From: Alteromonadaceae bacterium
GTDB taxonomy: Bacteria > Pseudomonadota > Gammaproteobacteria > Enterobacterales > Alteromonadaceae
Length of the DNA stretch: 64,000 nucleotides
Reading direction: 5' to 3'
Assembly: GCA_014872785.1 (NCBI GenBank)
Contig: WKFJ01000014.1
Location: 186,001-250,000 of the forward strand
This document shows positions 3,205-64,000 of the stretch, piece by piece. The first letter of the stretch is position 1. Each line of letters starts with the position of its first letter. The position numbers and the translations under genes are program-made. The notes beneath the pieces were generated by a model that had not been told where the DNA came from, searched no databases, and worked only from the letters and a program-made list of their open reading frames with translations.

Positions 3205-4524
3205 ATGTCGCAGTATTTTGAAAACGTGGATGCTATTCAGTACGAAGGCCCACAGAGCAGCAATCCATTGGCGTTTCGCCACTACCAAGCTGACCAAGTT
3301 GTTCTTGGTAAAACGATGGCTGAACATTTACGTTTTGCGGCGTGTTACTGGCACAACTTCTGTTGGGACGGTGCTGACGTGTTTGGCCAAGGCACTTTTG
3401 GACGTCCTTGGTTGCAAGCGGGCGACGCTATGCAGCGCGCTAAAGAAAAAGCAGAAGTCGCCTTTGAATTCTTCAAAAAATTGGGCGTTGAGTACTATAC
3501 GTTCCACGATATTGATGTATCACCTGAAGGTAATAGCTTCGCTGACTATCAGCGCAACTTTGGTGAAATGGTCGATACTCTTGCGCAAAAGCAAGAACAA
3601 ACGGGTCTTAAATTGTTGTGGGGTACGGCGAACGTATTCAGTAACCCTCGATACGCTGCTGGTGCCGCGTCCAACCCAGATCCAGAAGTCTTCGCCTACG
3701 CGGCCGGCCAAGTGTGTCACGCGATGGAAGCAACTCACCGTTTAGGTGGTGAGAACTACGTGTTGTGGGGCGGCCGTGAGGGGTACGAAACGTTACTTAA
3801 TACCGATTTGCGTCAAGAGCGTGAACAGCTTGGTCGCTTTATGCAAATGGTGGTCGAACACAAAGAAAAAATTGGCTTTAAAGGCGCTTTGCTTATTGAG
3901 CCAAAACCACAAGAACCCACTAAACACCAGTACGATTATGACACAGCAACCGTGTATGGTTTCTTAAAGCAGTTCGGCCTAGAAAAAGAGTTCAAAGTAA
4001 ACATCGAAGCGAACCATGCCACGCTTGCAGGGCACTCGTTCCAACACGAAATTGCCACCGCGTTTTCACTGGGATTGTTTGGCAGCATAGACGCTAACCG
4101 AGGTGACCCACAGCTAGGCTGGGATACAGATCAATACCCTAACAGCGTGGAAGAAATGACCTTGATCATGTACGAAATTCTAAAATCGGGTGGCTTTACC
4201 ACCGGCGGCATGATGTTCGATACCAAACTGCGTCGTCAAAGTACGGATCCAAATGACCTGTTCTACGGACACATTGGTGCAATGGACACCATTGCGCTTG
4301 GTCTTAAAAAAGCCGCAGCGATGATTGAAAACGACTTCTTATCTGATGCCGTTTCTAAGCGTTATGCAGGCTGGAGTCAGGACTTAGGTAAGCAAATCAT
4401 GAGTGGCAATCAGTCTATCGAGTCGCTTAGCAAGCTAGTCGCAGAAAAAGAACTTGCGCCAACTCACAGCAGTGGGCAGCAAGAACTATTAGAAAACCAA
4501 GTTAACGGTATTTTGTATCCGTAA
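3205..4524 (+). CDS. xylA: Xylose isomerase XylA
   Basis: A 439-residue isomerase that converts D-xylose to D-xylulose with two divalent metal ions; E. coli XylA has 440 residues. Diagnostic segments are [10 protein letters not shown] (catalytic His and metal-side Asp), [30 protein letters not shown] (metal Glu) and HEIATAF followed by [16 protein letters not shown] chose the ATG at 3205 because GAGAGGAAC lies just upstream and the N-terminus then fits the family; an in-frame GTG at 3175 would add ten unlikely residues. It is downstream of xylB and is followed by a clear terminator, so xylB-xylA probably form one transcription unit. Confidence 0.96.
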
Positions 4525-56168: not shown

Positions 56169-56471
56169 CTACTTGCTGGGTTGCTTGAGTAGTTCTCTTA
56201 TGAGTGCCGAGCGGCTTATTTGTTTTTCCTGTGCGAGCTTGAATAGTTGCTCGCGGGCTTGCTTGTCTAGGGTAAAACAATGTCGGCTCATTTTATTAGC
56301 AGAGGAGGTAACTTCCAGCACTTCCACGTTAGAGCCGTCGATAGATATAACATTGTTTATTACCGGCAAATTTCCAGTGTATACGTCCTTTGCTTGTTCA
56401 ATAAACTCGTCAAAGTCGACTTTGCGTTTTTCAGGCACAGACGCTTTGCGCTTCAAGGTTAATAAACTCAT
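56169..56471 (-). CDS. RHH-type partner of ParA, candidate ParB-like
   Basis: About 100 residues. The last 45 (RHCFTLDKQAREQLFKLAQE, then KQISRSALIRELLKQ) look like a ribbon-helix-helix DNA-binding domain, as in ParG-type partners of ParA. The N-terminus is basic (MSLLTLKRKASVPEKRK). The start is inside the end of the ParA gene. Together they may form a small partition or positioning pair. Confidence 0.65.
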   Translation of the reverse strand: MSLLTLKRKASVPEKRKVDFDEFIEQAKDVYTGNLPVINNVISIDGSNVEVLEVTSSANKMSRHCFTLDKQAREQLFKLAQEKQISRSALIRELLKQPSK

Positions 56472-57129
56472 TGGCAATCTCGTGATGTGAAGCTTGAATT
56501 AACTCATGGAAAATGGCTTGAATTTCCATACTGGCTTTGCCACTAACGTCTTTTTCCATTACCGACATACCGCTTTCTTCACTGTCATCGTAAATATTTC
56601 GAGAAAATGTGATGGCATTAAGCACGGGTAAATCGAAAGAGCGACACACTTCTTTAGCTTCCAATATGCGACTCGCCATTGAAGGCAGAGAAGGGCACTG
56701 AGTAATCACAAAGGCAACATTCATTTTGGGATTAACCATTTTACAGGTTGAGACAATGTCTTCCATATGCACAACGGTTTTCAAATCTCTGCGTTTAGGA
56801 CGCAGAGGGAGCAATATATGGTCGGCTACTGCCATCGAGGAGCGCAACGCAAGATTGTCCTGACCGCCACAATCAATGATGACGTAGTCAAACGAGTTGT
56901 TTAAGCTGATGAGCTCGTTGCGAATTTTGCCATAAAGTTGCACGCAATTAATTTTGCTCAATGACTCATCATTGTTTCGCTCTTGGATCCAATCAGAGGT
57001 GGTGCGCTGTGGGTCGCAATCCACCATCATTAATGAATCGCTGATATGGTTTTTAATGTATACGGCGATATTTTGTGCCAGACAACTTTTGCCGCTGCCA
57101 CCTTTTTCGCCACCAACGAGAATAATCAT
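56431..57129 (-). CDS. ParA-family ATPase
   Basis: A 232-residue ParA/Soj-type ATPase: deviant Walker A KGGSGKSCLAQN (residues ~9-20), Walker B-like YVIIDCGGQDNLAL, and a switch segment LLPLRPKRRDLKTVVHMED. ParA binds DNA and moves cargo with a partner. This one is small, resembling plasmid or accessory ParA, not chromosomal Soj (~260). It overlaps the RHH gene by 41 bases. A ParA-type parS-like site was not recognised nearby. Confidence 0.82.
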   Translation of the reverse strand: MIILVGGEKGGSGKSCLAQNIAVYIKNHISDSLMMVDCDPQRTTSDWIQERNNDESLSKINCVQLYGKIRNELISLNNSFDYVIIDCGGQDNLALRSSMAVADHILLPLRPKRRDLKTVVHMEDIVSTCKMVNPKMNVAFVITQCPSLPSMASRILEAKEVCRSFDLPVLNAITFSRNIYDDSEESGMSVMEKDVSGKASMEIQAIFHELIQASHHEIANEFINLEAQSVCA

Positions 57130-57247: not shown

Positions 57248-58144
57248 TTATTGGAAAAAGTAACCAACACTCGTCGACCAAGAAGTAGAGTTGTCGTCAG
57301 TACCAAAATCAAACGATGCGTCTACGTCCCACACTAGGTTGTCAGTCACATCGACCGAAAGGTAAAGATTGACCTGACCATAACTTTCAGAGCCAACGGC
57401 GGCGAAAGCATTAATCTGATCTCTAATGTCTACATCGCGAATTTGGCTCACGTTAGTGCCATTGCGACTGATGGCCGCTGAACCACTGTCGGTAAGCTCA
57501 TTCCAGCTGATAAAAGAACCAATTAGTACAGAGCGGTTATCCGTCAATGACCAGTAGTGACTGATGCCGCCACCTAACGATACGAACAAGGAGTCGCCCT
57601 CGTCGACAGAGGTTTCCAGAGGTCTGTCTGGATCAGGAGCATCAATAACTGAGTCTTGTTCCCAATCGGAGTAATGCACACCCGTATAAAGACTGAACTG
57701 CCAATCATCGCTGCTAAAGTAACGACTCAGACCTATAGAGTGCGTATTGGCTTTTGCTTCAATTTGTGAATTTGGCTGATTCTGGGTTAATACAACAGAA
57801 AACTCTTTATCGCTGTATTGAGAATACTGGTAGTAAGTAGACCAATTTTCTAGGTTGTAAGAAATACCCGCACCCAAGGTTTCCACTTCATAGTCAACCT
57901 GAATGAGGTTGTTTTGTGTGACGTTGTCGCTGTAGCGGGAAGAGTCAATCGACACTGAAATCTCTTCAGTAACATCAAAATCTGCCATTAAAGACACACC
58001 ACTTGGCGTTAAATTGAGTGTTTGCTCACCCACAGAGGTGGTGAGTTCAGTTTCCCCATAGCCAATGTAAATTGAATTTCCCCAGCATAGAGCCGGAAGT
58101 GCAGAAAATAAGAGTGTGCTTGCTTTTAGGGAGAGTTGCTTCAT
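57248..58144 (-). CDS. Outer-membrane beta-barrel protein, unknown
   Basis: A 298-residue protein with a signal peptide (MKQLSLKASTLLFSALPALC) and alternating beta strands such as ISYNLENWSTYYQYSQY, DWQFSLYTGVHYS and a terminal Phe-Gln (WSTSVGYFFQ), which together suggest a porin-like or autotransporter-like barrel. No family is named. It precedes the cassette region on the other strand. Confidence 0.65.
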   Translation of the reverse strand: MKQLSLKASTLLFSALPALCWGNSIYIGYGETELTTSVGEQTLNLTPSGVSLMADFDVTEEISVSIDSSRYSDNVTQNNLIQVDYEVETLGAGISYNLENWSTYYQYSQYSDKEFSVVLTQNQPNSQIEAKANTHSIGLSRYFSSDDWQFSLYTGVHYSDWEQDSVIDAPDPDRPLETSVDEGDSLFVSLGGGISHYWSLTDNRSVLIGSFISWNELTDSGSAAISRNGTNVSQIRDVDIRDQINAFAAVGSESYGQVNLYLSVDVTDNLVWDVDASFDFGTDDNSTSWSTSVGYFFQ

Positions 58145-58350
58145 CTAATTTGGGTTTGTGAGAATTTGTTAGCTAATCTAAGTGGCGAGAAGAGAAAAAT
58201 CAAATGTAAGTGCGTCGATGGCGTTGTGAACAAACCCATTGGCTCAATAGTTGTTATCAATATTCCACAAAAATACATTCATAGAAGAATTTGTTCTCAA
58301 CTTTAGTAAGTGTTGACTGATTAAAACAAGCGTTTGCCCCGGTAGTCATG

Positions 58351-58374
58351 AAAACGACCCATTGGGTCGTTTTT
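58351..58374. terminator. Terminator-like hairpin
   Basis: AAAACGACCC and GGGTCGTTTT pair around ATT and end in TTTT. It could stop transcription into the array from the left. Confidence 0.6.
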
Positions 58375-58481
58375 GCGCAACAGCCAATAATAGTGAGCAT
58401 TAATCCAGACTAGAGCTAGTCTTGACCGGATAAATTTGTTATCGATTGCCTCGAGAATAAAAACGACCCAACGGCTTGCAG

Positions 58482-58501
58482 AAAAACGACCCGTTGGGTC
58501 G
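58482..58501. repeat. Partial hairpin copy near the array start
   Basis: CGACCC and GGGTCG pair around GTT, preceded by AAAAA. It is a variant of the 58351 hairpin. A broken copy (AAAAACGACCCA) is at 58459-58470. Confidence 0.5.
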
Positions 58502-58533
58502 ATATTAAATTGTTAGGTTTCAAGGAGAGTGTT

Positions 58534-58881
58534 GTGAAATTGGTTGGCTCTAAAACTGAAAAGGAAATAAGGCTGGAGCTTATAAAAAATACTTCATCCG
58601 TATTTTCAAAATCGGTTGAGACTCACGTAAAAACCTTCTTTTTAGATAATGACTTGGATACAACTAAAGCCATTGTTTTAGACTCCTTTCCGGATGACAG
58701 ATTTGTTTATTATTGGTTACTTATTGATTCTCGGATGGTTGGTAGAGTAGAAGTCGAGCTAGACTGTCCTGAATGTACAGGCATGGATACTTTTACTCTT
58801 CTAGAATATCGCCATAAATTAAGTAAGATCCAACAAATAAAGTTAGCTGTCGCAATGGAGTTATTAGCAACTGAAACCTAA
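58534..58881 (+). CDS. Cassette 1 protein, unknown
   Basis: From the GTG at 58534 (AAGGAG six bases upstream) it is 115 residues, acidic and soluble, with VETHVKTFFLDNDLDTTKAI, FPDDRFVYYWLLIDSRMVG and LDCPECTGMD. No family is recognised. The stop TAA lies inside the attC heptamer ACCTAAC, as is usual for cassette genes. A promoterless cassette gene depends on readthrough. Confidence 0.65.
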   Translation: MKLVGSKTEKEIRLELIKNTSSVFSKSVETHVKTFFLDNDLDTTKAIVLDSFPDDRFVYYWLLIDSRMVGRVEVELDCPECTGMDTFTLLEYRHKLSKIQQIKLAVAMELLATET

Positions 58882-58976
58882 CAAGAATTTCAAGCGGGAC
58901 TGCTAACAGTTTGCTCGGTTTCGCTTCGCTACACATTTTAGCAAACTATTATCAGCCCTTTAAATGGGCGTTATGT
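58876..58976 (+). other. attC site 1
   Basis: It starts ACCTAAC (58876-58882) and ends GTTATGT (58970-58976), 101 bases, with inner AGTTTGCTCGG / TTTTAGCAAACT-type complementarity, close in layout to Vibrio VCR sites (AACAA..., GGGACTG, TATCAGCCC, GGGCGTTA). ACCTAAC is the exact complement of GTTAGGT at 58512-58518, so the cassette spans 58513 to 58970. Confidence 0.85.
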
Positions 58977-58999
58977 TTCTCTCGTATAGGGAGTGAAAT

Positions 59000-59515
59000 T
59001 TGTTTAAAAAGCTCACACTGCTACTTTTGTTACTTTGCTTGATCTTAGGAGCGACTGTTGGCTCCTACGTCTATGGTGTGACCGTTGGTCGCGAACTCCA
59101 GTTCCTCAACCAGGAAGCAGTACTCGCACATAAACTAGCATGGGATATTGATCTAGACTTTAGTGAAAACATTGAACTCACAAGGCTTCAAAAAGAACAA
59201 GAGATAAATGAGAAAATAGTCACCTTTGGGAAATATATTACCTTAAAACATCCCTCCCCCTTTTTTGAAGAGCTATTTCAAGCCTCAGCAGACTTGTTCA
59301 AGACAGTTGTGGAACATAGACTCCAGAATCCTGATTATTATGTAGACTCGGGAAAGCCTGCTCCCTACAGCGACAAAGCTTTTGTTCGATTAGAGAACTT
59401 ATTTAAAACAGATGATTTTGCAGACGAACATGGAAAAGAGTTCGCTCAAAGAGAACTAGCAAAATACAAACAGGATTCTGAGTACTATCACAGAGCTTTA
59501 GAATACTTTAGGTAG
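59000..59515 (+). CDS. Cassette 2 protein, membrane-anchored, unknown
   Basis: A 171-residue protein starting at TTG 59000 (AGGGAG upstream). Residues 5-27 form one membrane helix (LTLLLLLLCLILGATVGSYV); the rest is soluble and largely helical (ELTRLQKEQEINEKIVTFG, FFEELFQASADLFKTVVEHR). No family is named. It probably faces the periplasm. Confidence 0.65.
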   Translation: MFKKLTLLLLLLCLILGATVGSYVYGVTVGRELQFLNQEAVLAHKLAWDIDLDFSENIELTRLQKEQEINEKIVTFGKYITLKHPSPFFEELFQASADLFKTVVEHRLQNPDYYVDSGKPAPYSDKAFVRLENLFKTDDFADEHGKEFAQRELAKYKQDSEYYHRALEYFR

Positions 59516-59523
59516 ACCACGAA

Positions 59524-59626
59524 ACATAACAAAAGCAATCAATCTCGGACAAAAACTCGCTGGCACCCCCTCATTCTTCGGGTATTATAGCCAACAAGTT
59601 TGTGCCGTTTAATTTAAACGTTAGCA
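59524..59626 (+). other. attC site 2
   Basis: ACATAAC (59524-59530) to GTTAGCA (59620-59626). The inner arms CGGACAAAAACTCGCTGGC and GCCAACAAGTTTGTGCCG are complementary with bulges. ACATAAC exactly complements GTTATGT at 58970-58976, the junction of its own cassette. This is as expected for a cassette bounded by its attC. Confidence 0.88.
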
Positions 59627-59671
59627 TATTTGGAGACAAACCATCCTATTTTTTCAAAGGGAAAATTCTGC

Positions 59672-60505
59672 ATGGGAAAATATTTTAGAAAAACCAAAGA
59701 AGAGCAAAAAAGAATTAACAGACATGGAAAGATTGAACGATATGATCTTCCTCCCGAATTTGCAGATACCGATGAAGTCCGTAATTTTTGGGCTAATAAT
59801 GTAAATGCTGAAAGATTACGCGGTAAGATAGTATCCGATGCTGAACGTGGTTCGTTTAGATATTTTGCACAAATCGAAGAGCAACGTTTTCGGTCACATC
59901 GACATCTTATGCCTTGGATTATGGGAATTCCGCCGCAATCCAAAGTTTTGGAGATTGGATGTGGAATTGGATTGGATAGTTTACAGATAGCTAAAATCGG
60001 GCACACTTTGACAGCCATTGATCTCACTGATGTAGCTGTTGAAACTGCGCGCAAGCGGTTTGATGATTTAGGAATGAATGCGACCTTTAAAGTTGGAGAT
60101 GCTATGGCTCTTGAGTTTGACGATAACACCTTCGATTGTGTCTACTCCTTCGGGGTTTTGCACCATGCACCTGATACAGAAAAAGGAATTAATGAAGCTT
60201 TTCGTGTACTAAAACCTGGAGGGGAAGCGCGAATTATGTTGTATAACCGACACTCGCTTAACGAGTTGGTGCATCGAATAACAGGCATACCATTCGAGGA
60301 ACGTGATGAACTATGTCCAGTTGTGCGGCGTTATACGGTAAACGAGGTAATGCAACTGTTCAATAATTTTTCTTCGGTTCAAATAAACCGTGATTTTCTT
60401 TTTGGCGAAGGTTACGGAGTCCTATTCAAATTTATACCACGATGGTTATACGATACCCTATCACGATATCTTGGTTGGCATTTGATGATTATAGCAAAAA
60501 AATAA
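59672..60505 (+). CDS. Cassette 3 class I methyltransferase
   Basis: From the ATG at 59672 it is 277 residues. Motif I is VLEIGCGIGLDSLQIAK, the acidic loop TAIDLTDVAVE, motif II FDCVYSFGVLHHAP and post II RVLKPGGEARIMLYNR, so it uses SAM. The C-terminal part is specific (LNELVHRITGIPFEERDEL) and might bind the acceptor. Substrate unknown. TTG at 59630 is a possible longer start with a weaker ribosome binding site. Confidence 0.8.
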   Translation: MGKYFRKTKEEQKRINRHGKIERYDLPPEFADTDEVRNFWANNVNAERLRGKIVSDAERGSFRYFAQIEEQRFRSHRHLMPWIMGIPPQSKVLEIGCGIGLDSLQIAKIGHTLTAIDLTDVAVETARKRFDDLGMNATFKVGDAMALEFDDNTFDCVYSFGVLHHAPDTEKGINEAFRVLKPGGEARIMLYNRHSLNELVHRITGIPFEERDELCPVVRRYTVNEVMQLFNNFSSVQINRDFLFGEGYGVLFKFIPRWLYDTLSRYLGWHLMIIAKK

Positions 60506-60530
60506 ATTGAGATAATTGGGGAAAATTGAC

Positions 60531-60590
60531 TGCTTACATGGCGCTTCACCGGAGCGCAAAAAAACGCGCCCGGTGAACTTTCCGTTATAA
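60531..60590 (+). other. Candidate attC site 3 (degenerate)
   Basis: TGCTTAC (60531-60537) differs by one base from the expected complement (TGCTAAC) of GTTAGCA at cassette 3's 5' end, and GTTATAA (60584-60590) closes the site. In between, CTTCACCGG/CCGGTGAA and GCGC/GCGC pair. At 60 bases it has the length of short attC sites. The altered AAC may make it a poor recombination site. Confidence 0.6.
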
Positions 60591-60610
60591 CCAGAATTTG
60601 GAAACTGTTT

Positions 60611-61362
60611 ATGGAAGCACCTTTTTATAATTTGATTATTTTTTTCTGGATAATTGCGTTTGCGGCCACTTCTTTTTCTCAATCGGCTGGCGCAATATCA
60701 ATGATGTAGCCCCGAAAGAGATTCATGTCACCGTTGATAGATTCCAAAAGTCTAGTTGGAGTCTTGGGGTAGGAGACAAGAGAATCAATGGTTCGGATTT
60801 TGTTGTTTCTAACTGGGCAAACACCCATAACCACATTGTTGTCTTAGACGGCATTCTAGGTGTGATAATAGAAGATTCAGCATCAGAAAAAATACTTAAA
60901 AGCGAAGTAGAAAAAATATTAACAAATGATTTTAATCTTCAGCTTTTATTGAAGAGCAAGATTGAAAACGGTCAGGACTTCAATAATCTTGTTGGTGGCA
61001 TCGGAAAAACTACCGTGAAGAGGAAATATTCATTAGTCCTTCAATCATATTCGCTTATTTATGCAAACGAAGATGGAGTAATATTTAATCCTCAAATATT
61101 GGCAAAATTATTTGATGAAAATAATAACCTTATATGGTCATCAGTTTACGGAGAAATGAGCGATAGAAAGAAGTGGGCTGGTGAAGGCAACTCATGGAAC
61201 CTAGCTTCTGTTGATGCAATGCTAAATGAAATTTATGAGCTTTTAATTTTGGATATAAAAGCGAACATGAACGGCTTTGAGAACGAGTTTCAAAGACAAA
61301 GAGAGAAAAAAATTATCGAAAAAATTATAGAAGGTATAGAAATAACGCTACCTGAATTTTGA
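60611..61362 (+). pseudogene. Frameshifted cassette gene, lipoprotein or secreted type
   Basis: ATG 60611 opens a 32-residue frame with a hydrophobic signal-like start (MEAPFYNLIIFFWIIAFAAT) that stops at 60707. The neighbouring frame, open from 60631 to 61362, reads NINDVAPKEIHVTVDRFQ and goes on for some 220 residues (its first usable start codon is GTG at 60862). A single-base shift near 60680-60710 would join them. So the gene looks broken; 166 residues from 60862 remain readable. No family is named. Confidence 0.55.
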
Positions 61363-61463
61363 CATAACAAGCGCATTAACACTCGCTGTGCTCGATGGGG
61401 ACAAAAACACGTAGGCTCCCCTCGCTTCGCTCGGTATTAGAGCTCGTTATGTTGGTGTTAGCC
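61362..61463 (+). other. attC site 4
   Basis: ACATAAC (61362-61368) pairs with GTTATGT (61446-61452), and a further GTTAGCC (61457-61463) follows. It carries the ACAAAAAC, GGGGAC and CTCGTTATG parts of VCR-like sites. The end could be at either GTT; GTTAGCC fits the next attC better. The broken cassette gene stops at its first base. Confidence 0.7.
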
Positions 61464-61482
61464 ACAAGTAGGAGATCGAACC

Positions 61483-62079
61483 TTGTTCGGGTTATTCAAG
61501 AAAAAGGAAAAGAACGTAAAGGTTAAGCCAGAATTTATTGTGGTCACAATTAACGCTCGTATTCTGCCGATGCACAGAGGTGAAATATACGGAGATCCTC
61601 TTGACGAAATTCTCTCAAAAAACTCTATCGGTGAGGTTTCTGGTGGTGGCACTCTTAAATCCCAATCTGGTGAGATCGAGTATTGTGATGTAGAAATTCA
61701 GGTCAACAATTCAAGTAACGATACTGTCGAATTAATTAGAACATCACTTGAAGAGATAGGCGTACCTAAAGGGTCAAAAATCAAAGTAGAAGCCACTGAC
61801 TCCGAAATTAAGTTTGGCACTTTAGAAGGGCTAGCAATTTCCTTAAATGGTACCGATTTGGACGACGAGGTATACGCAAACAGCGACTCCAATTATGTTT
61901 ACAGTGAGCTTGATCGGCTTACGCAAGGTAATGGCAAGGTCTACAGTTACTGGCAAGGTTCAACCGAAACTGCTTTTTATTTGTACGGCACTTCGTTTTC
62001 TCAAATGAAATCACAAATATCGGAGTTAGTTAATAACTATCCTCTGTGCCAAAAATGCAGAATTGAACAAATCGCATAA
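61483..62079 (+). CDS. Cassette 5 protein, unknown
   Basis: From the TTG at 61483 (AGGAG upstream) it is 198 residues, soluble. Features: FLFKKKEKNVKVKPEF-type basic start, IEYCDVEIQVNNSSNDTVEL, VEATDSEIKFGTLEG and VYSYWQGSTETAFYLYG, ending in CQKCRIEQIA. It may be one domain with a beta-sandwich look. No family is recognised. Confidence 0.65.
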   Translation: MFGLFKKKEKNVKVKPEFIVVTINARILPMHRGEIYGDPLDEILSKNSIGEVSGGGTLKSQSGEIEYCDVEIQVNNSSNDTVELIRTSLEEIGVPKGSKIKVEATDSEIKFGTLEGLAISLNGTDLDDEVYANSDSNYVYSELDRLTQGNGKVYSYWQGSTETAFYLYGTSFSQMKSQISELVNNYPLCQKCRIEQIA

Positions 62080-62083
62080 ATAT

Positions 62084-62185
62084 CGCTAACAAGGTAAATC
62101 AAACATGGACAAATACTCGCTGATTCCGCTCGTGCATCGCAAATAATAGCCAGCAATTAACCGCCCTTTATTGCGGCCGTTATTC
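62084..62185 (+). other. attC site 5
   Basis: CGCTAAC (62084-62090) to GTTATTC (62179-62185), 102 bases, with GGACAAATACTCGCTG and AGCCAGCAATTAACCG complementary in part. CGCTAAC differs in one base from the complement of GTTAGCC at cassette 5's 5' end (GGCTAAC). Confidence 0.75.
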
Positions 62186-62262
62186 GATTGACGTAGTAAT
62201 ATCTGATTCCATAGTTGGAGCGGGGCAATATGGCGTTGTTTTGCATCAAAAGGAATTATTGA

Positions 62263-62649
62263 TTGAAGTTAGAAAACTATTGGCTATTTGCACTAGGTGC
62301 ATTGTTCATGGGACTCGTTTTTGTTGGGCAGGTGTACTATCGTCCATGGGTAGTTGAAAACGCATTAGATGATTTTGGTTTGGCAAATTACTGGCCAAGC
62401 TTATTTGGTTGTTTTTGTGCGATATTTTTTGCCACTTCTTTTGTGAAGAAACGAGAACTAATTAGATGTAGTTTTTGGACTGGTGTTGGCTGCGCAGTAT
62501 ACGAAATCTTGCAACCAATGCTTGGGACTGGAGTGTTTGATTGGGCTGATTTAGTTGCAGTTTGTTTAGCAGGTACTGCGTGCTCGCTAGGATTGCTAGT
62601 TAAATCAAGAATGTCACAGTCGATCAGTGACAGGAAGAAGGTAGGTTGA
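62263..62649 (+). CDS. Membrane protein after the last attC, unknown
   Basis: A 128-residue protein with four hydrophobic segments (around 8-24, 45-60, 72-86 and 95-112). TTG at 62263 has AAAGGAA upstream. No attC follows it within 100 bases, so it is either the flanking chromosomal gene or a cassette that lost its attC. No family is recognised (the motif YEILQPMLGTGVFDWAD recalls VanZ-like proteins only weakly). Confidence 0.55.
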   Translation: MKLENYWLFALGALFMGLVFVGQVYYRPWVVENALDDFGLANYWPSLFGCFCAIFFATSFVKKRELIRCSFWTGVGCAVYEILQPMLGTGVFDWADLVAVCLAGTACSLGLLVKSRMSQSISDRKKVG

Positions 62650-62751
62650 TACTACAATGGCAGTTTCGATGGGAATGGGCGATCTGCACATCCTGTACAC
62701 ATCACCCACCGAAACACAACAACTAGGTATAAGGGACCAATTAATTAGACA

Positions 62752-63387
62752 TTAAACAATGTCTTCTTCTTCCAGTTCTTCAATACATTCGCGTACCGCC
62801 TGGCGCGTGGCTTTGCGGCTTTCACCAGCAGCTTGTACTTCTTCGAATGTAATTAAACCGTCTTCGTCCGCGTCAATGCTATCAAACGCATCCGTTTTTT
62901 TGCTCAGTGCGCTTGCTTGCGCTTCTTCTAAGTCAATAAATCCATCGCCTGAGGTGTCTACTGCGTTGAAACGATCTTCTGGCGACTGAAACTTATCTGC
63001 ATCAGGTACAACAATGCTGTCATCTTCTGCGGCCAAATCCGCTACACAGGCAATAATGTCTTCTGCAATGTCAGAGTAGTCCGCGGCGGCTTCGCCATTG
63101 CGACGTGTCGTTGCTTCTTCTAGGCTTAATAAACCGTCTTCATCGCTGTCTTTACGAGTGAATCGACGTTCGGTGTTTTCAGCGACATTCGCTGTGAATT
63201 CGTCTAACGATAAAACCGCATCGCCATTGGTATCTAGGTTATTAAATCTTTGTTCTGCGCGCTGCTCGCCGTCTCTGTCACCGCGTTTGCCACCTTTGGC
63301 ATGAACTGCTGCGCTTGCGATTAGTGACGTGATCAATAATGAACCGACTAATACTGCGACTTTTGACTTGTTATGTACCTTGAACAT
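62752..63387 (-). CDS. Secreted EF-hand calcium-binding protein
   Basis: A 211-residue protein with signal peptide (KVAVLVGSLLITSLIASAAVHA). Four EF-hand loops are visible: DTNGDAVLSLDE, DSDEDGLLSLEE, DTSGDGFIDLEE and DADEDGLITFEE, all with Asp at positions 1, 3 and 5 and Glu at 12 (first with Asp-Asn). It binds calcium in the periplasm or outside. It is flanked by the cassette region and murJ, and runs towards the array. Confidence 0.85.
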   Translation of the reverse strand: MFKVHNKSKVAVLVGSLLITSLIASAAVHAKGGKRGDRDGEQRAEQRFNNLDTNGDAVLSLDEFTANVAENTERRFTRKDSDEDGLLSLEEATTRRNGEAAADYSDIAEDIIACVADLAAEDDSIVVPDADKFQSPEDRFNAVDTSGDGFIDLEEAQASALSKKTDAFDSIDADEDGLITFEEVQAAGESRKATRQAVRECIEELEEEDIV

Positions 63388-63569
63388 ACTACTCTCCAGT
63401 TGGGTTAAATGTTGAGCGTGCTAAGATAATGTTGTGCTTAGCAATACTCTTGTTTCAGTGTCTAAAACGGACTCAGGACGGAGGCGTTGACAAAAAAATA
63501 AAAAAAATCTGATTTATTTTTTAAGTAGCTGATTTATTGCATAATAATAAAAAATGTACGGAACCTCCT

Positions 63570-64000
63570 TTGTCTAAAAAATTACTTAAATCTGGCGCCA
63601 TTGTTTCCATTATGACCTTTGTGTCTCGTATTTTGGGGCTGGTTCGCGACGTGGTTATCGCCAATGTTATGGGCGCAGGGGTGGCTGCCGATGTATTCTT
63701 TTTTGCCAACAAAATTCCTAACTTTCTACGACGTTTATTTGCTGAAGGGGCGTTTGCCCAGGCGTTTGTACCGGTATTGGCGGAAGTTCAAAACGAAAAC
63801 GACCAACAAAGCTTAAGGCTTTTTATTGCCCGGGTTGCAGGCACGCTTGGGGTCATAGTTACCTTGGTGACAATATTAGGTGTTATCGGCTCTCCAATAC
63901 TGGTGGCCCTGTTCGGAACCGGTTGGTTTTGGGATTATCTCAACGATGGTGAGCAGGCCGATAAGTTTGTAATGGCATCTGCCATGCTCAAGATTACTTT
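63570..64000 (+). CDS. murJ: Lipid II flippase MurJ, N-terminal part
   Basis: The gene runs off the right edge after 143 residues. It begins with SKKLLKSGAIVSIMTFVSRI, then LGLVRDVVIANVMGAG and FFANKIPNFLRRLFAEGAFAQA, the signature of MurJ (MviN), which flips lipid II across the inner membrane. TTG start at 63570 matches the family start better than the ATG at 63612. Its presence suggests ordinary chromosomal DNA resumes here. Confidence 0.92.
   Translation, partial: MSKKLLKSGAIVSIMTFVSRILGLVRDVVIANVMGAGVAADVFFFANKIPNFLRRLFAEGAFAQAFVPVLAEVQNENDQQSLRLFIARVAGTLGVIVTLVTILGVIGSPILVALFGTGWFWDYLNDGEQADKFVMASAMLKIT

Follow-up and report, generated by a model that had tools for sequence, protein, structure and literature searches.

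Excerpts of the published work describe several kinds of cassette array that stand apart from an integrase gene (intI). Clusters of attC sites lacking integron integrases (CALINs) hold, by the IntegronFinder-type definition, several attC with their cassettes and no intI nearby, and they are about as common as complete integrons, with one survey counting 2961 of the former and 2760 of the latter. Scattered CALINs are reported from Shewanella and Xanthomonas, and off-target insertion, loss of intI and rearrangement have been discussed as origins of CALINs (PMC8618304). Xanthomonas integrons can combine an inactivated intI with retained cassettes and CALINs at several loci (PMC12444791), and cassettes inserted at attG sites lie away from the intI locus (Loot et al., 2024). 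Outside class 1, the attI site is poorly described and is not detected by IntegronFinder 2.0. The array considered here lies in a 64,000-nucleotide stretch of DNA (the window) from the draft genome of an Alteromonadaceae bacterium (assembly GCA_014872785.1, contig WKFJ01000014.1, positions 186,001 to 250,000), where a copy of attI directly heads the first cassette and no intI is found.

The window array is like a CALIN in having several attC with cassettes and no intI nearby, but it carries its own attI. With sedentary chromosomal integrons it shares an attI, a G|TT junction, attC typical of the genus and an array that is read away from attI, whereas it has no intI and is one of several attI-headed units per genome instead of a single one. 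Its cassettes lie away from an intI locus as those at attG do, although the acceptor is an attI and not a non-classical genomic site. Attention to attI copies heading dispersed CALINs is not apparent in the excerpted account of Xanthomonas, and the matches listed from the open-access literature, in which few subscription papers are covered, include no account of a single genome in which integrase-less arrays are headed by several attI copies. We interpret the window locus as an integrase-less integron, made up of an attI module (58332-58515) and a small cassette array and representing one of several such units in the genome, and we place the probability of this interpretation at about 0.82. 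An earlier note on this DNA had called the array a CALIN-type cluster, a label that suits the working definition of two or more attC with no intI close by, and had overlooked the attI to the left of cassette 1.

The attI module and the attC sites of the window

The window is G000:C47:186001-250000 in our labels, where G000 is a draft genome of 4.66 Mb in 66 contigs with a completeness of 93.9%, G001 and G002 are of the same genus as G000, and G015 is of the same family. The parts of the attI module, in window coordinates, are as follows.

58332-58515, plus strand: attI module, 77% identical to G001:C3:3958-4144, with the crossover G|TT between 58512 and 58513
58351-58374: palindrome AAAACGACCCATTGGGTCGTTTTT in the outer part of attI; many other copies carry a similar sequence at an equal distance
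58487-58501: hairpin CGACCCGTTGGGTCG, which adjoins the crossover and lies 12 to 26 nt before the junction

The matching stretch in G001 sits between the start of intI (4194) and the first cassette of a complete integron. Positions 58330-58512 (183 bp) match G001:C3:3964-4144 at 77%, 58332-58518 aligns with 3958-4144 over 189 aligned positions, and CGACCC..GGGTCG repeats occur within 58332-58515. Seven copies have a right end. Over the 14 nt that precede the junction their mean identity is 92%, and TTA follows the junction in all seven, while the following 30 nt are 27% identical, which is close to chance. This junction pattern looks like that of an attI loaded with different first cassettes. 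An attI and cassettes joined at G|TT, as in a complete integron, are both present in the window, and a functional intI beside attI is not. A consensus scan for the cassette promoter Pc gave no sigma-70-like site on the plus strand of 58145-58600.

The hairpin was compared over 23 copies, in which 78% of cells are paired (60% in shuffles) and 30 cells are changed on both sides (15.6 in shuffles). Its covariation score is 0.417 against 0.155 when shuffled, with none of 500 shuffles as high, and versions of the hairpin slid along the alignment score 0.03-0.20. The pairs with double changes (4 of 6) and the pair types (11) are not clearly above shuffles, being reached by 485 and 51 of 500, respectively. 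Because related sequences can beat such shuffles without any structure, these values are only suggestive of conserved pairing.

To score the whole 64-kb window (filters off), we trained a covariance model (R1) on 19 attC from G001, G002 and four further genomes in the family; the window contributed no sequence to it. The 19 were chosen from 25 candidates, six incomplete or degenerate ones having been dropped (three from L045 and one each from L029, L034 and L035), and the training alignment has both-sided changes at 18 of its 30 predicted pairs, a count that comes without a shuffle control. At the three positions for which the earlier note had proposed an attC search (58876, 59524 and 62084), R1 found a site each time, giving three matches at E <1e-14 within 3.3 kb.

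58876-58976, bottom strand: attC of cassette 1 (R1 64.5 bits, E 4.5e-15)
59524-59626, bottom strand: attC of cassette 2 (R1 81.3 bits, E 7.8e-20)
61362-61452, minus strand: truncated attC, 5' arm kept and 3' arm gone (blastn 61364-61443, E 8.9e-9; not reported by R1)
62084-62185, bottom strand: attC of cassette 5 (R1 67.5 bits, E 6.2e-16)

In the rest of the window, the next R1 match (E 0.06) is the opposite strand of a reported site and the others have E 2.6 or worse. The blastn query for the site at 61362 was a G002-type attC that carried one wrong letter. The five attC originally claimed are thereby reduced to three strong sites and a truncated one, while the candidate at 60584 (heptamer GTTATAA, ending at 60590) is unsupported, with no R1 match at E up to 10; it forms a strong hairpin on both strands. 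The heptamer pairs that had been described as exact are indeed so, since GTTAGGT (58512) with ACCTAAC (58876) and GTTATGT (58970) with ACATAAC (59524) are reverse complements, as expected of the two ends of one cassette. Bottom-strand folding z-scores for the five sites are, in order, -2.4, -2.8, -2.9, -1.3 and +0.9, and folding energy by itself does not discriminate attC sites. Two versions of a regex-plus-stem scoring of attC were dropped in favour of R1: the first missed the array, and the second returned 17.5 matches per 10 kb near the array against 8.5-16 in the other stretches listed. Across the whole of G000, R1 finds at least ten attC at E up to 1 (three in the window, two each on C3, C20 and C50 and one on C63), a lower bound given that 150 of 2077 first-look candidates were scored; nine of these sites have E 1.2e-8 or better and one on C50 has E 0.007.

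attI copies with and without an integrase gene

The assembled G000 has no match to the IntI family model over the cut-off, and there is none on C47, so that the absence of an integrase claimed for the array holds for the assembled genome. The search elsewhere in the genome gave only a 74-codon C-terminal remnant at C12:67261-67482, beside sucD (named by eye), where R1 finds no attC. About 2.1 kb upstream of the window attI contains no intI-like sequence (tblastn, best E 0.91). Two intI over the cut-off are present in G001 and one in G002. The C12 remnant is followed by small open reading frames (ORFs) and degenerate attC-like stretches (by eye; locus L009 9247-9510), which would make it a dead integron elsewhere in the genome. 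G027 has 90 attC matches at E up to 0.001, yet no IntI match at E up to 1e-20.

Further copies of attI were sought in 35 genomes of the family with a sequence-only model of 88 nt (R2), for which 126 first-look candidates were scored per genome. R2 was built from seven attI copies with the window copy among them, and the window copy's own match is by construction. It gave 27 matches at E up to 0.01, of which 24 were examined (eight in G001, seven in G033 and three each in G000, G029 and G013); those left out are G000:C16, cut by a contig end, and the weak G027:C37 and G008:C1. Sequence comparison shows copies on C19, C14 and C11 of G001 and on C63 and C3 of G000, with left parts at the ends of G000 C16 and C20. 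The attI part on C20 comes after a pair of attC that belong to another array, which shows that an attI copy can also be placed within or behind an array.

In G029, the R2 match at C3:56512-56594 is directly upstream of the only intI over the cut-off (C3:56753-57700), and in G033 the match at C5:42140-42216 is likewise directly upstream of the only intI over the cut-off (C5:41028-41975). These genera are outside the set from which R2 was built, and the placement is, at the level of sequence, an independent check that the element is attI. The matches in G013 lie away from intI, and the G013 intI has one in-frame stop. Taken together, 3 of the 24 copies examined are linked to intI (G001:C3, G033:C5 and G029:C3) and the other 21 are without it, tblastn with three IntI proteins and the remnant having found no intI in the stretches around each copy. 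At least 2.2 kb of upstream sequence is available for 18 of the 21, and the contig ends earlier for G000:C3, G033:C14 and G033:C32. Predicted attI copies therefore outnumber intI in four genera, and we term the attI-headed units without intI satellite integrons. Upstream of nine intI-less copies (seven of the window type and two of a second type), about 2 kb or more held nothing intI-like better than E 0.075, all three positive controls being found, and 15 further satellite loci also had no intI. A short tblastn match at G001:C17 was rejected as intI, the query having run upstream of the start codon into attI.

Behind 14 of the 21 intI-less copies, R1 finds at least one correctly oriented attC (E up to 1e-3); it finds none at this threshold behind the other seven (G001 C19, C15:170558, C17:61195 and C20:94262; G033 C41:216849, C5:111093 and C32). 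Wrong-direction matches at the 21 are only the opposite strand of the same sites. The junction reads G|TT in 22 of the 24 copies, with G001:C20 and G013:C1 as exceptions, and the weakest copies (G001 C17:61195 and C20:94262; G033:C32), at 24-25 bits, are doubtful. The second attI type is linked to intI in G001:C15 and in G002, and it too has intI-less copies with attC behind them, at G001:C17:116475-116665 (94% over 191 bp) and G002:C1:2213201-2213358 (82% over 158 bp). The occurrence of intI-less attI copies in four genera suggests that the heads of integrons (attI and cassettes) multiply or persist in these genomes without an integrase gene, and this multi-copy pattern across genera is the part worth following.

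Origin of the window array and its relatives

The attI and the array occupy an interval between two genes that are neighbours in related genomes.

57248-58144, minus strand: left-flank gene, outer-membrane-like and labelled OmpA-like by eye, with no Pfam family
58145-62751: interval holding attI and array, 4607 bp
62752-63387, minus strand: EF-hand gene of the right flank, followed by murJ (named by eye)

The same pair of genes stands uninterrupted, about 230-350 bp apart, in G001, G002 and G015 (three of the five other genomes that have both), and in G001 the order enoyl-CoA hydratase, OmpA-like gene, EF-hand gene and murJ is intact (gene names by eye). From this adjacency, the 4.6 kb was most likely gained in the G000 lineage. 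In G024 and G031, other genes stand between the OmpA-like and EF-hand genes (loci L057 and L058), and blastn finds no attC between the two there. The left-flank protein is present in 6 of the 59 genomes searched, G000 included.

The cassettes would have been loaded one by one at G58512|T58513, with IntI recombining the folded bottom strand of each attC with the double-stranded attI, and this IntI could have been encoded by a gene once beside the window attI or supplied in trans from another locus. Because only the 74-codon remnant of intI is left, the array is probably now frozen and decaying, a relic in this genome. Signs of decay within it are one attC without an arm, one cassette boundary that cannot be read and a last gene without attC.

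An IntI from elsewhere could instead have inserted the cassettes one by one at a chromosomal site other than attI (attG), leaving a CALIN without attI. Such insertion is a known route to CALINs, as excerpted from PMC8618304, and it fits two clusters found here: the ten attC at G002:C1:787029-793824 (L091), which have no intI and, by blastn over 2 kb upstream, no attI, and the two attC on G000:C50, where R2 finds no attI. At the window locus we consider it improbable, as it is contradicted by a recognisable member of the attI family directly before cassette 1, with the shared sequence stopping at G|TT; this direct heading of cassette 1 by attI argues for an integrase-less integron and not for cassettes at a random attG site. 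Least probable of all is that 58332-58515 is an unrelated mobile repeat or terminator that came to lie before the array by chance. It does contain a terminator-like palindrome, it exists in several copies, and 7 of the 21 intI-less copies have no attC found behind them, but in G001:C3 the element separates intI from the first cassette and in two more genera it sits directly upstream of intI, the sequence that follows its crossover motif differs from copy to copy, and correctly oriented attC stand behind 14 of the 21 intI-less copies. Where a CALIN is headed by an attI, recognising it helps to separate the origins of such clusters locus by locus.

The integrase-less integron interpretation leaves room for different histories of the heads, on which the upstream sequences bear. 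Homology between intI-linked and satellite copies often stops 176-181 bp upstream of the junction (the window against G001:C3; G001 C19 and C11; G033 C41:255850 and C5:111093; G029:C1), and elsewhere it ends at 203 (G033:C45), 122 (G033 C41:216849) and 95 bp (G029:C8). SOS control of intI is documented (excerpt of PMC3108266), and a perfect box of the E. coli type is present in each of the three intI-linked copies, at -201 to -205. Among the 19 satellites with sequence there, the box is perfect in G033:C45 (-202), 7/8 in G033 C41:255850 (-202) and 7/8 at a different position in G033:C32; the remaining 16, the window copy included, match at 6/8 or less, a level reached by about a fifth or more of shuffles. 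We considered a conserved GTTT near -181 as a sharp boundary of copying but did not adopt it: one satellite has a perfect SOS box at -202, so homology must once have extended beyond this point, and the boundary may only mark the end of a constrained region.

It is possible that this locus once had a complete integron (intI, attI and cassettes) from which only intI was lost, by deletion in place; this narrower form of the same interpretation competes only with copying. The SOS boxes at -202 in G033:C45 and G033 C41:255850, this being the usual operator of intI, would suit such decay, as would the intI remnant on G000:C12. We nevertheless hold it to be unlikely, in view of the missing intI trace upstream of the window attI and of a stretch of about 230-275 bp upstream that is common to G001 C14, C11 and C15:170558 and G000 C16 and C20 and is missing from intI-linked G001:C3, which suggests copying from copies that already lacked intI. 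In other genera this upstream comparison could not be made or gave no clear result; the stretch shared by the three G013 copies is about 240-355 bp long. In a FastTree tree of the 24 copies, satellites group mostly with copies of the same genus, many inner nodes are weakly supported, and G001 C17:61195 and C20:94262 and G033:C32 sit on long branches. Our preferred account is that integron heads were copied without intI or lost it, that some copies spawned others, and that the integrase promoter, no longer in use, decayed while the attI core stayed.

The attC themselves offer a further comparison. The best identities between satellite attC and those of an intI-linked array are 0.91 and 0.88 at G001:C17, 0.91 at a G002 satellite, 0.94, 0.93 and 0.88 for three of the seven attC at G029:C1, and 0.88 for one of the five at G029:C8. 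The ten attC of G000, which has no intI, are at most 74% identical to attC of another G000 array, as opposed to up to 91-95% in three genomes that keep intI. This pattern would fit loading in trans while IntI was present and decay after its loss, and copying of whole arrays also fits it. A more tentative idea, plausible although we lean against it, is that in several genera of the family attI-headed arrays multiply within a genome as satellite integrons loaded in trans by a single IntI, and that the copies drop the SOS-regulated integrase promoter, keep the attI core and hairpin, and die once the last intI is lost, as in G000. If it is true that one IntI loads several attI platforms, the integron would be a distributed system and not one array, which would change counts of cassette expression and array size.

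Several observations weigh against the interpretation of the window and its relatives given above. An SOS box is present in the three intI-linked copies of this attI type and absent from the window copy, and in many satellites the attC bear no close resemblance to those of the intI-linked array, with identities down to 0.57. Several attI and attC copies of this draft genome are located at the ends of contigs (C3, C16 and C20), so that an intact intI may lie in a gap. In addition, neither end of the inserted DNA could be placed exactly, given how far the intergenic DNA on either side has diverged. As to the transposition functions or inverted repeats that would flank a mobile integron on a transposon or plasmid, with the ends not fixed, only short, chance-like matches of 12-14 nt pair the two flanks within 57500-64000 among the repeats listed (20 of the 23 direct families and 25 of the 26 inverted pairs), and apart from attI and attC the DNA has no further match in G000-G002 at E up to 0.001.

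Cassette genes and neighbouring elements

The genes carried by the interval, all on the plus strand, are given below.

58534-58881, plus strand: ORF of cassette 1 (ORF1), no family over the curated cut-off
59000-59515, plus strand: ORF of cassette 2 (ORF2), no family
59630-60505, plus strand: ORF of cassette 3, class I S-adenosylmethionine (SAM)-dependent methyltransferase (Pfam Methyltransf_25, 5.5e-25)
60862-61362, plus strand: ORF4, frame open from 60712
61483-62079, plus strand: ORF of cassette 5 (ORF5), no family
62263-62649, plus strand: ORF6, final gene in the interval, not followed by an attC (R1)

Apart from the methyltransferase, none of these ORFs has a Pfam, NCBIfam or PADLOC family above the curated cut-off or at E 0.01. 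Gene stops had been said to lie in or near the heptamers, and this agrees with the frames: ORF1 stops at 58881 inside the R'' box, and ORF2, ORF4 and ORF5 stop at 59515, 61362 and 62079. Plasmid matches to the methyltransferase are only distant, all 573 records being below 60% identity, and the ORF6 protein is present in 3 of 345 genomes of the order, G000 included. Around ORF4 (60611-61362), a frame that opens upstream with an ATG at 60611 is not in phase with it, and the frame changes near 60670 (by eye), possibly reflecting one gene split by a frameshift or a sequencing error. An Rfam scan of the window at gathering thresholds gave no match.

Other loci with attI copies have neighbours of their own. 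At G001:C19 (L086 212-3624), a Gabija defence pair (PADLOC GajA 1e-244, GajB 2e-200) begins about 60 bp past the junction of an intI-less attI that has no attC behind it. In G002 (L093 7319-7977), two small genes that appear toxin-antitoxin-like by eye lie between the second-type intI-less attI and attC. Related repeats of about 200-250 bp flank one intI-less array of G001 (L087 6198-6769 and 10135-10732) and may represent a mobility element; the same repeat family occurs near two further loci with attC or attI copies (L092 5468-5690 and L111 4352-4565), and at the window array no such flanking repeats of about 250 bp are seen. Three intI-less arrays are adjoined by genes or fragments that resemble, by eye, one Y1 transposase associated with repetitive extragenic palindromes (L093 8563-9546, L088 1641-2036 and L090 6406-6747). 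Within the window itself, a ParA-like partition ATPase (NCBIfam ParA_partition 1.5e-38, below the cut-off) and a small ORF at 56169-57129 separate the enoyl-CoA hydratase gene from the OmpA-like gene (by eye), which are neighbours in G001, and would thus represent a second insertion nearby.

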